Source: Candidatus Dojkabacteria bacterium (lineage in GTDB: Bacteria; Patescibacteriota; Dojkabacteria; SC72; JAFGCJ01). From it: a stretch of 40,054 nt of DNA. The stretch spans positions 1 to 40,054 of the forward strand of contig JAFGIK010000105.1 of assembly GCA_016929645.1 (NCBI GenBank), read 5' to 3'. How positions within the stretch are numbered: position 1 is the stretch's first letter; the number at the start of each line of letters is the position of its first letter. The position numbers were made by a program, and so were the translations under genes. Below the pieces are notes generated by a model. That model saw nothing but the letters and a program-made list of their open reading frames with translations, was not told where the DNA came from and did not search any database. Below, in pieces: positions 8,451 through 16,095 of the stretch.

Positions 8451-9464
8451 TTAAATCTTAACATTTTTTTTCAACAAGTCCTGATAGTAATATAGATTAT
8501 GAATAGTTGCTAATGTCTTACCCAAAATCTCATTATTTTTTAATAAATGATGAACGTATGCACGAGTATAATTTCTACATGTCTCGCATCCACAATTCGA
8601 ATCTATAGGATTGGTGTCTAGCTTATATTTGGTATGTTTAATTCGAACAATTCCATTGGAACTATACAATATTCCATGACGAGCATTTCGTGTTGGGATA
8701 ACACAATCAAACATGTTATATCCAAGTTGAACACATTTTTCAATATCCTCTGGTTTTCCAACACCCATTGCATATCGTGGCTTGTGAACAGGCATCAGAT
8801 CTGCAACAAGCTTAAGAATATCCTCAACTAAAATACCTTTATCATCGACAGGCCATCCACCAAAACAATACCCGTCAAAATCCATTTCAATAAGTTCCCT
8901 AGCACACCTCTCTCTTAAATCTTTAAAAGAGCCACCTTGAATTACTGCAAAGATTTTCTTGTTATTTGGTCGAGTATTTTTCTTATCAAAATGATCCCTG
9001 GCACGCCTTGCCCAATCAATTGTGTAATTCACAGATGTTTCAGCATCTCTCCTTGAGACACCACTATACCTACAATCATCTAGAGCAATAAAGATATCTG
9101 AATCTATCGCATACTGCATATCAATTGAAATTTCTGGGGTTAATAATGTCTTTGAACCATTTACTGGAGATTTGAAATACACTACATACTGAGTTATTTT
9201 CCCAAGGTTACTTTTTTTATGTATTAATGAATAGACTTGAAATCCACCTGAATCAGACAAAATATACCCATCCCAATTCATTAATTTTTTAATGCCACCA
9301 AGTTTTGTTAAATTTTCAATTCCTAATGTCAGATACAAATGATATGTATTAACAACGACCATTTTTGTATTAGTATTTTTAAGCTGGTCAGTAGAAACTG
9401 CACGAACAGTACCCAGAGTTGCATCTGGCATAAATATTGGTAAATCAAGAGAAAATAATTTCAT
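8451..9464 (-). CDS. tgt: tRNA-guanine transglycosylase
   Basis: '[12 protein letters not shown]', '[31 protein letters not shown]', Zn motif '[17 protein letters not shown]...IHNL'. Start overlaps the upstream gene's stop (ATGA). Confidence 0.94.
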
Positions 9465-10561
9465 TGCTCGTCAGTCCCAACCGTATCAAATAGTAAATTT
9501 TCATCATCAGATTCTACATCATTGTTTGACAAATCATACCCCTTATCCAGTTCTTTTTCATCGATAAAATTAAGATCACTTCGTTTATACATCAAATCAG
9601 GATGAACAGCACAAAAAACAACGTTCACAGTACCTTGAGCCACATTACTAAACGAGCCTTCAAAATATGCTGTACCATCAAGACTATATGCAGGAACTAT
9701 ATAAGAATACTTACTATCGACATAATACCAATATTTATTTGACTGCTCTAGCTCAATATTTGTTATAGAAAGACTTGTCCTTACGGAGACAGGTAAATCA
9801 TCGTAGTCATCCGAATTTATTTCATAAATAATTTTTTTAGGAAAAGATTTCAATGAAATATACTGAGAGATTTCTTCTGTGGAAATTGTTGGTAGGGATT
9901 CATAATAGGAAATATCCGATATTGCGAGAAACCATAGAGATTTTAGATCACCAAATTCTGTAAATTCAGCCTTAATTGCACAATTACCACAAGTAACACT
10001 AGCAATATTTGCATCATACCCAACTTCTGTATAAACAGCAGAGACAAAAACATTTCCATTTTGTTCACGAACTGAAGTGACAGTTAGATCTGGTAAATCT
10101 ACAAGATATTTATCATAAAAATCCAGAAAATAGCCTTGAGCATTATCTTCCTGAACTGTCGATTCCATAGGGACATCCACATCTATCGCCTTATCAAGAT
10201 TCAAACTGATGAAATTTTCAAATTTATTATACATAACCGAACCAGAAGAAATTTCCCATGTTTTGATTTGGTCGTTGTCTGTAATGGTTGAGCCTAGATC
10301 AATACCTAAACCAGCAATTATTGCTTTTAATTTAGACTCTGATATTGATTTCGAATCAAAGATCGGCTCACTTTCATCATAAGACTTAACACCAGTTGCA
10401 ATAACAATGTCATAGCTATATTCACCATAAAAAGGAGATGGAATAGATTCAAGTTCTTCTCCTCGAGAGAGAAGGAGGTAGATTATAAATAAAATTACGG
10501 CAATAATTGTTACAACTATAATCTGAAATCTATATTTTTTAAATAAACTAACAAAATCCAT
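9461..10561 (-). CDS. Single-pass membrane-anchored exported protein, unknown function
   Basis: N-term hydrophobic segment '[20 protein letters not shown]', then ~330 aa predicted extracytoplasmic. Confidence 0.7.
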
Positions 10562-10605
10562 TCAATACTATAAAAAAAATTAATAAAAACAGAAGCAACA
10601 ATTTA

Positions 10606-13156: not shown

Positions 13157-14620
13157 TTATCCCAATAATCCACCAATAACGGGAATCTGACTTGCAGCTT
13201 TTTTGGCATTTTCTGTTGCTGACATAATTCCTTTGTCTTCCTCAGCTTGTAAGAAGCTTTGTACAATTGCTGGAGCACCTGCGGCAAGAAAATAGGCAGC
13301 AATAACAAACACTCCTCTTATCTGAATCATTGATGGAGTTTGATATCCTCCACTCATAAAAACAAGTGGTGCTGTAGCTCCAGTTGTGATTGAACTATAG
13401 GCAATATATCGTCCAAGATTAATAATAAAGAACGCAACAGGAAATGTAAGAGCATTTGTTGCTACTCTTTTAAGCCAGTTGACAATACCACCAGAACCAC
13501 CAGGAAGCGAGCCAACAAGTATATAGATTGGACCGAGAATTAAATCAATAAAAAGCTTAAAGTATGTAGTTACCAATGTTCCATAGAGCCTTATCGCTGC
13601 ATATAAACAAACCAAAGCAAGAGCAAGGATTGCAAGATAAAAAATAACACCTGTAGGTAAAAATGTCTTTATAAATGTCAATGATAAAGAACCTACAGAA
13701 AACATACCACCCGCTGAAGGTTTATCAGGATTAGCAGCCTCAAAAGCATATCCCGCCATCCTGATCGGTCCTGTAAACCCAACAATTTCAAATCCAGGAA
13801 TTCTTGTAGCCAAGTTATTCTGCATATATACACCAATAATACCGGTAAGTAACCTTGCAATATCAATAATAAAGCCAACAATTGCAAAGCTAAATGTCAC
13901 AAGAATAAGACCTACAATTACACCTGGAATCGTATTTACAATGCTTACTGCAGTCTGACCATTGATTTTCTGCCTAAACATAATCATAAAACCAGCAGCA
14001 ATCAAGACTAGGACAAATGAAGCATAAGCAATATTTCTAAACATTTCCCAAACAGGCTCAAGACCGATATCATTTTTCAAAAACAGATAGCCATCTCCTT
14101 GAGCATAGACTACTTGATCTCCTGTCTGGTCATAGCCAGGAACCCATTGATTAGCTAAATGGTTTGGAAGATTGACTGCTGGAGGATCAACAAGCAAAGC
14201 GTAAACTTGATTATCAACAGTATTAACAAGCCCTTGTCTCAATACAACGGGATAATCAACTTCATCTGCACGAGCAGATGCACCTTGGTAAACATCAGTT
14301 CCGTACAAGGTTCTTATACCAATAGACATATCAGCAATCGTTTTATCGCCTTGAAGAACTTCAATATTTGAGTTTGAGTCACCATTTGAGACATAGGCAC
14401 CATCCTCTGATAACTGATATTGCTCAATAGAATCAATAGTAATTGTCTCTTCCTCCTGAGCGTTAGCAATAGAGAAATTCGAAAGAATAAGGAATTGACC
14501 AATAATAAAAGTTAATAATAGAGAAAATCTATCCCAGACAGGATTTGTTTTTTTGAAAATTGCAAAAAAAACTCTTTTACCTGATTCTTTAAAATAACTA
14601 AAAACCTTTGAAAGCAACAT
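13157..14620 (-). CDS. VirB6/TrbL-like polytopic membrane protein (putative type IV secretion-like component)
   Basis: 487 aa; exported N-terminal domain, then several TM segments including 'FRQKINGQTAVSIVNTIPGVIVGLILVTFSFAIVGFIIDIARLL'. Confidence 0.6.
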   Translation of the reverse strand: MLLSKVFSYFKESGKRVFFAIFKKTNPVWDRFSLLLTFIIGQFLILSNFSIANAQEEETITIDSIEQYQLSEDGAYVSNGDSNSNIEVLQGDKTIADMSIGIRTLYGTDVYQGASARADEVDYPVVLRQGLVNTVDNQVYALLVDPPAVNLPNHLANQWVPGYDQTGDQVVYAQGDGYLFLKNDIGLEPVWEMFRNIAYASFVLVLIAAGFMIMFRQKINGQTAVSIVNTIPGVIVGLILVTFSFAIVGFIIDIARLLTGIIGVYMQNNLATRIPGFEIVGFTGPIRMAGYAFEAANPDKPSAGGMFSVGSLSLTFIKTFLPTGVIFYLAILALALVCLYAAIRLYGTLVTTYFKLFIDLILGPIYILVGSLPGGSGGIVNWLKRVATNALTFPVAFFIINLGRYIAYSSITTGATAPLVFMSGGYQTPSMIQIRGVFVIAAYFLAAGAPAIVQSFLQAEEDKGIMSATENAKKAASQIPVIGGLLG

Positions 14621-14637
14621 GAAATTTAATTAAAAAT

Positions 14638-16095
14638 TTAAACAGATTGAGTCTGGTCTGCAAAATTAGAGTATACAAACTCTTCGTAATCTTCAAAATT
14701 ACAAAATCTATCTTTCTCCGGATTACACGGAGCAAGTTGACGGACAGTCATATTCCAGGAATCATACAGCGTATCTTTATATGTACAAACTGCTCCTACA
14801 TTGTCACCGCATAGTGAAACTTCACAATACGTACCAATAAAACGATCTTCATAATAGTAACCTCCAGGAATTGTACCGTCATTTTTGAAAGTACCCGGCT
14901 TACTTGATCCGGCAAGTATCATATCCGCATAAATATCAGCATTATCAGCACCTCCTTCGTTGCTGCCAATAGCATCAGTCACATCAAGAACAAGCATTGC
15001 ATCATGAACACAAGTCAGATTTTCAAAACATGTAGCCTCAGCTAATGTTCTTGAAAGATTAGCAAGCCAACCTTTTTCATTTTTAGTCTTTTCAAGACAT
15101 GAGACAAGACCGGGAACAATTCTTGCTGCAGCTGTACATGTTGTAGCCTCAGCATGGGCTTCAATATCATCTTCTGCATTAATAAACGAACCTTTTCCCA
15201 ATCTAGTGAATACTAAATCTCTTGTCGGATCAGGAGGAAAATACATTGCAAAAACTTTACGACCGGTCTCTTTTGTAGGAAGTACCGGGGAAGGACATCC
15301 TCCACTTGCACTAGGTGGAACTATTAACGGTGGATTTTTCTCACAAAAATCAGTACCAGCATTCTGAGCTTCCCCAACTCCAAGAGATGAATCATTGCTA
15401 ACGTTTGTTGATCCAGCACCGACTATCCTGACAATAAGCTGAATCAATGCAGCCTGCCAACCTGTTGTGACTACATCAGGTTGGCCTTTAGGAGCATAAG
15501 TATGTTCCATATAATAATATCTATCTCCATTAGTAGATGCCATTGCCCCATCAGCATCTTCCCTGTATTCTACAGGGCCAGTCTCACTTCCAAAGTATCT
15601 TGCTACATCGTAAGATTCACCTTCCCTAACATCAACTCTGGCATCGTCATCAATTTGCAAACCGTACCAACTTGCAGGATACGAAACCATAGTGACATTC
15701 ATCTTACACAGTTTGTTATAATTGAATATATCAACCCTAGAATCGGATACATTCTCTTCCACATTAGACTCATCACAATAAAAATTGCCTGTACTTGCAG
15801 GAATACCTCCACAAACTTCACTGAGATTGGAGGTCTTTGTCGCCCCAAGAACACTTACATTGCCAAGTATCTGACCAGAACTACTAGAGGCTCCACTTGT
15901 ATCAATTGGAGTCAAAGGAATACTTGATGATAAATATTCATAATACTCTTCACCTAAGAACGTAGAGCATTCTTCTACTGCAAAAACAGGTTTACTACTA
16001 AATAAAAAAACTACTGATACGACTAAGGTTGCACTTAGCGATTTCAACAAAAAACTACTAAAAATTGTTTGTGAGATTCTGAATTTCATTTGCAA
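14638..16095 (-). CDS. Secreted Cys-rich protein, unknown function
   Basis: N-term signal-like 'LSATLVVSVVFLFSSKPVFAVEEC', about 15 Cys in the mature part. ORF starts at a TTG; internal ATG at 16089 is the likelier start. Confidence 0.7.
   Translation of the reverse strand: MQMKFRISQTIFSSFLLKSLSATLVVSVVFLFSSKPVFAVEECSTFLGEEYYEYLSSSIPLTPIDTSGASSSSGQILGNVSVLGATKTSNLSEVCGGIPASTGNFYCDESNVEENVSDSRVDIFNYNKLCKMNVTMVSYPASWYGLQIDDDARVDVREGESYDVARYFGSETGPVEYREDADGAMASTNGDRYYYMEHTYAPKGQPDVVTTGWQAALIQLIVRIVGAGSTNVSNDSSLGVGEAQNAGTDFCEKNPPLIVPPSASGGCPSPVLPTKETGRKVFAMYFPPDPTRDLVFTRLGKGSFINAEDDIEAHAEATTCTAAARIVPGLVSCLEKTKNEKGWLANLSRTLAEATCFENLTCVHDAMLVLDVTDAIGSNEGGADNADIYADMILAGSSKPGTFKNDGTIPGGYYYEDRFIGTYCEVSLCGDNVGAVCTYKDTLYDSWNMTVRQLAPCNPEKDRFCNFEDYEEFVYSNFADQTQSV

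Follow-up and report, generated by a model that had tools for sequence, protein, structure and literature searches.

The window analysed here is an entire contig of 40,054 nucleotides (nt) from Candidatus Dojkabacteria (JAFGIK010000105.1), belonging to a genome of 1.59 Mb in 109 contigs. Between queA and tgt it carries four consecutive genes, here called A, B, C and D, which an initial annotation of the DNA had described as an uncharacterised cluster for a cell-surface or secretion apparatus. We compared this cluster with 59 relatives, the nearest of which are mostly deposited as Candidatus Dojkabacteria/WS6. The genes and their neighbours are:

14638-16095, minus strand: gene A, open reading frame (ORF) of 485 amino acids (aa)
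13157-14620, minus strand: gene B, ORF of 487 aa
10606-13050, minus strand: gene C, ORF of 814 aa
9461-10561, minus strand: gene D, ORF of 366 aa
9461-9464, minus strand: ATGA, the 4-nt overlap of the D stop with the tgt start
16148-17248: queA, upstream neighbour of A
8451-9464: tgt, downstream neighbour of D

The ORF list confirmed the four minus-strand genes and the 4-nt overlap of D with tgt. The claim that the genes are tightly packed holds for the gaps of 17 nt (A-B) and 44 nt (C-D) but not for the 106 nt between B and C; queA and A are 52 nt apart. Because homologues keep this order in other Dojkabacteria, A to D are genes and not chance ORFs. Hydropathy and cysteine counts matched the earlier description of A as a Cys-rich secreted protein, of B as polytopic with an exported N-terminus and of D as a single-pass exported protein, and hydropathy and cysteine positions likewise bore out C as an 814-aa membrane protein with a Cys-rich HEMTH end. 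When A, B, C and D were scanned against Pfam and NCBIfam, no curated model matched at its cut-off, and the four proteins were not assigned to unrelated known families. Separate searches with C, A and D each recovered the same nearest relative, G001.

The four genes very probably belong to the type IV secretion system (T4SS) described for Patescibacteria (PMC12102498). Outside Dojkabacteria they form part of a single row encoding pilins, a secreted protein, B, a C-like protein, D, PrgI, a TrsD-like protein and VirB4. At the eight loci outside Dojkabacteria where the D position is visible (L110, L117, L121, L128, L131, L135, L136 and L145), B is followed by a protein of 900-1500 aa whose C-terminus is M23-like, then by a D-like protein and PrgI; at most of these loci pilins and a secreted protein come ahead of B. 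B is linked to PrgI-TrsD-VirB4 in L138, L142, L144 and L148, and in the first three of these to pilins too, placing B homologues of other classes inside the T4SS locus, between the pilins and PrgI-TrsD-VirB4. In Dojkabacteria the row is split into three loci. B homologues occur in 51 of the 59 relatives, with gene order kept, and VirB4 in 57. The present genome encodes a VirB4 on contig C49 (PF19044, 2e-31; CagE_TrbE_VirB, 2e-9), beside a PrgI (PF12666, 6.8e-8) and a TrsD-like gene that gave no Pfam match but shares its position and aligned family with those of L138, L142, L144 and L148. A T4SS pilin array (PF18895) lies on C24. The guess of a T4SS-like secretion function thus survived the tests of synteny, VirB4 presence and family mapping. 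The accompanying statement that the subunits match no textbook system did not, as the same genes stand in the known Patescibacteria locus with pilins, PrgI, a TrsD-like gene and VirB4. Our literature search found no account of a T4SS in Dojkabacteria. The only cultured Patescibacterium in which this was tested, Southlakia epibionticum, cannot grow on its host without the T4SS (PMC10633639).

Two further observations concern T4SS genes elsewhere in this genome. On C24 (G000:C24, L152:10606-14714) the pilin array is followed by a 723-aa exported coiled-coil protein, and exported coiled-coil proteins of similar kind flank the pilin arrays in L142 and L144. Contig C99 (G000:C99; L030, L031), outside the window, carries a second, mobile-element-like T4SS with a further VirB4, a VirD4-like protein, a Replic_Relax domain, a sortase, SSB, an M23 peptidase, a DUF11-rich surface protein and a TrbL protein that also matches T4SS_pilin weakly.

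The position between queA and tgt was correctly given before, but this pair is a late, lineage-specific context. The usual order in Dojkabacteria is fn3, a small coiled-coil gene, fn3, A, B, C, D, SH3 and pcrA. In this genome, contig C97 retains fn3 and SH3-pcrA as neighbours with A-D missing between them, and queA and tgt lie less than 100 nt apart in 23 relatives. The simplest reading is therefore that A-D was inserted between queA and tgt within the family of this genome, to which G001 also belongs; there, too, A follows queA and tgt follows D.

By hydropathy, the N-terminus of B is signal-like and is followed by five more hydrophobic segments; the protein contains one strictly conserved motif:

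13973-13993, minus strand: GFMIMFR core motif (B residues 210-216), invariant among 16 aligned Dojkabacteria B proteins

One of these 16 proteins matched PF04610 TrbL (6e-5, below the cut-off), and a search of PDB sequences with the B profile returned nothing significant. An NCBIfam hit to CNF1 was discounted, its score being 17 bits where the cut-off is 950. At the VirB4 loci of Dojkabacteria we saw PrgI and a TrsD-like gene and no VirB6 candidate, which makes B the best available one. B is a highly divergent VirB6/TrbL-like protein whose identity rests mainly on position. In the phylum, VirB6 (in Microgenomatia) and VirB8 are reported as scarce or missing (PMC12102498). A paralogous cluster of a VirB6-like gene and a short C, lacking the peptidase domain and D, was seen at L047, L048, L107, L111, L134 and L140; at L047 and L048 it adjoins a polytopic protein that resembles an O-antigen ligase, judged from its sequence.

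Protein A has 15 cysteines and a single N-terminal hydrophobic segment. Its listed start is TTG; an ATG two codons further on (16089) gives a cleaner signal peptide and is likely to be the true start. The window A belongs to the same family as other Dojkabacteria A proteins (hhalign probability 95.9% over the C-terminal 157 columns), and as predicted from its sequence it is a secreted Cys-rich protein encoded directly upstream of the VirB6-like B. A TTTTCA-18-TATAAT match at 16098-16127 ends 3 nt ahead of the TTG and 9 nt ahead of the alternative ATG (16089). This match is weak, the region being only slightly above its shuffles in such matches; if it were used as a promoter, the A message would be nearly leaderless.

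C combines an N-terminal part, membrane helices and an enzymatic end:

11503-13050, minus strand: C N-terminal region (residues 1-516), low-confidence helical model
11305-11502, minus strand: C transmembrane region (residues 517-582), 2-3 hydrophobic helices by hydropathy
10609-11253, minus strand: C extracellular Cys-rich peptidase domain (residues 600-814), from the predicted model
10903-10917, minus strand: HEMTH zinc-binding motif at C residue 712, with both H and the E unchanged across 10 homologues
10822-10836, minus strand: EWGAE motif, with a Glu that is probably the third zinc ligand; EWGA conserved without exception in 10 homologues

The N-terminal region, which is probably cytoplasmic, has homologues in Dojkabacteria, and the N-terminal half of the model is too uncertain for interpretation. 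From residue 630 on, the predicted local distance difference test score (pLDDT) is about 90, and all 12 cysteines lie past residue 656. The top Foldseek structure for the domain was the minigluzincin selecase (probability 1.00, TMt 0.50), whose core superposes at a root-mean-square deviation of 2.5 Å over about 90 residues, with a non-significant E of 0.5. Together with the invariant HExxH and EWGA, this top match suggests that the C-terminal domain is a minigluzincin-like zinc peptidase. It shares with minigluzincins the HExxH motif and the downstream Glu and differs in being Cys-rich and membrane-tethered. Searched against PDB sequences, the domain gave only weak ColH matches (E 0.28), and against Pfam no consistent family. 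Most C homologues carry an M23/LytM-type HxH domain in the same position; the window C itself has neither an M23 domain nor its HxH. One relative's locus (L080:1-8049) shows the arrangement C-D, B, C-D, a duplication within one genome of D and, at least in part, of C.

D has a single N-terminal hydrophobic segment that serves as an anchor. Its AlphaFold model (pLDDT 85.6; predicted template modelling score (pTM) 0.78) gave 14 Foldseek matches at E <= 3.2e-5 and probability 1.00, with modest overall TM-scores of 0.28-0.50. The significant matches were solely YycI (2o3o), YycH, YpeB (5boi) and the uncharacterised 5coz. As modelled, D is a membrane-anchored extracellular protein with the YycI/YycH/YpeB fold. 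A PDB sequence search with the D profile found nothing significant. The assignment of D as VirB8 was ruled out by fold, with no VirB8 or NTF2-like structure among the significant Foldseek matches. A profile built from Dojkabacteria D proteins only aligned with six D-like proteins from outside the group (hhalign probability 93.5%, E 2e-7, 292 columns), and the SH3, A and fn3 families, run as controls in the same comparison, gave no match. By profile comparison, then, the D-like proteins outside Dojkabacteria are true D homologues. In related metagenome-assembled genomes, an otherwise conserved D gene contains an in-frame TAA (L156; G040:C33:947-1966), as do queA copies in G041; these could be assembly errors or pseudogenes.

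The alternation of two peptidase types on C allowed its history to be compared with that of its neighbours. Twenty-four loci were labelled as HExxH or M23 type. The number of type changes needed was five on the B tree and four each on the trees of the C N-terminus, A and SH3 (the SH3 test covering 20 rows, of which four are HExxH type), compared with one on the D tree. None of 2000 label shuffles (mean 5.5 changes) reached the single change of D, whose HExxH-type members, nine including the window D, form one clade with support 98/96. A single HExxH clade was rejected by the approximately unbiased test (p-AU) for B (4e-55), the C N-terminus (2e-6), A (2e-6) and SH3 (0.002). Two pairs illustrate the pattern: L038 and L043 are sisters by B and rejected as sisters by D (p 1.5e-34), and the same is true of L049 and L041 (p 6e-75). 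Since only the D tree tracks peptidase type, there is strong comparative evidence that the exchanged block comprised the peptidase domain of C plus D, and neither flank. A coupling of C and D is, on these phylogenies, quite likely.

Taken together, we propose that the cluster is a displaced VirB6-like module of the Patescibacteria T4SS, lodged between queA and tgt, with a wall-opening peptidase on C and D as its partner; we assign this whole explanation a probability of about 0.7. B would form part of a membrane channel powered and anchored by the VirB4 and PrgI encoded elsewhere, with which we infer that it assembles, and A would be an exported subunit. The N-terminal part and membrane helices of C may tether it to the channel, with its zinc peptidase displayed outside the membrane, where it could open the cell wall, its presumed substrate, or the surface of a neighbour at the site of contact. 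D would be a dedicated partner, an inhibitor or chaperone that holds or stabilises the peptidase until it is required. YpeB provides a precedent as the partner of the cell-wall enzyme SleB, which it can inhibit or stabilise (PMC6660665, PMC13393411), and by analogy we give about even odds to a comparable regulatory role of D toward the C peptidase domain. A further, tentative idea is that the pair is an exchangeable T4SS cassette, a surface peptidase domain with its gatekeeper, alternating between two unrelated zinc-peptidase types on an otherwise vertically inherited remainder and possibly matched to the wall or surface chemistry that different host cells present.

Several observations weigh against this proposal. 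Linkage of the module to virB4, present in other classes, is absent from this genome and other Dojkabacteria, where VirB4 lies on a different contig or at a distance of about 33-50 kb; such linkage is usual for T4SS genes and not strictly defining. The window B matched no VirB6 model in the Pfam and NCBIfam scans, and a profile comparison with the other TrbL protein of this genome, on C99, failed. No homology was detected between A and the secreted protein at the equivalent position in other classes, nor between the N-terminal part of C and their C-like proteins, of which only the M23 part aligns. For D, a sister relationship of the window protein with the M23-type D of G001 was not rejected (p-AU 0.115), and physical linkage could partly account for the joint exchange. 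A functional pair is the simpler explanation, because linkage alone would need to have broken off repeatedly at one and the same gene border.

The distance from VirB4 might also mean that A-D form a separate surface or secretion apparatus, independent of VirB4, that borrowed a VirB6-like channel. That VirB4 never adjoins the module in Dojkabacteria fits this idea, as does the second cluster of B and a short C without D or peptidase at L047, L048, L107 and L111. We nevertheless consider it very unlikely, given the identical gene order within the VirB4-PrgI-pilin locus of other classes and the lack of a VirB6 candidate at Dojkabacteria VirB4 loci, for which B is the best available. The exchange of a catalytic domain at a fixed point, its adjacent gene moving with it, is what toxin and immunity pairs do, and the C-terminal domain could accordingly be a polymorphic effector against neighbours with D as its immunity protein. 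This is improbable: only two peptidase types were seen among intact C proteins, D belongs to one homologous fold family for both, and the domain follows the membrane helices of C with no sign of release. Orphan immunity copies were not noticed, though no search was aimed at them.

D has a conserved place before PrgI, and its topology of one N-terminal helix and an extracellular domain is that of VirB8, the scaffold missing from the Patescibacteria T4SS. VirB8 is hardly detectable in the phylum, and an unrelated protein may substitute for it (PMC12102498). That D is this substitute, with an unrelated fold, seems very unlikely, as its significant fold matches are confined to YycI, YycH, YpeB and 5coz and it tracks peptidase type, which the channel protein B does not.

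Relative to known systems, the cluster belongs to a familiar type of machine that is unusually arranged; what is new is a surface peptidase that can be swapped, together with the protein that is probably its partner. With the Patescibacteria-clade T4SS, which is related to MPF-FATA (PMC12102498), it shares VirB4, PrgI, the TrsD-like protein, VirB2-like pilins and the VirB6-like B, as well as the gene order in other classes and cell-wall peptidases encoded near virB4. It differs in its division into three loci in Dojkabacteria, the HExxH end of C in the window and a D that is not VirB8-like; the published description is without A, the C N-terminus or D. The VirB1-like hydrolases of Gram-positive T4SSs, PrgK and TraG, are likewise membrane-anchored extracellular hydrolases in a T4SS locus, and most C homologues have the LytM/M23 domain in common with them. 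In contrast, the large N-terminal part of C belongs to no known family, and here and at other HExxH-type loci a minigluzincin-like domain replaces M23. D resembles YycI/YycH and YpeB in predicted fold, N-terminal anchor and association with a cell-wall enzyme, but has no sequence-level match to them, lies in a secretion locus and has a zinc peptidase as its putative partner. Sequence families are now available for B, as a divergent VirB6-like protein, and for C and D as its two partners. They raise the testable question of whether D gates a wall-cutting enzyme at the contact between symbiont and host. Split systems of this kind escape searches confined to the vicinity of virB4.

Elsewhere in the window, judged from the ORFs alone, 3291-4649 and 803-1498 encode an exported protein whose N-terminal domain is CAP/SCP-like and a protein resembling a sortase.

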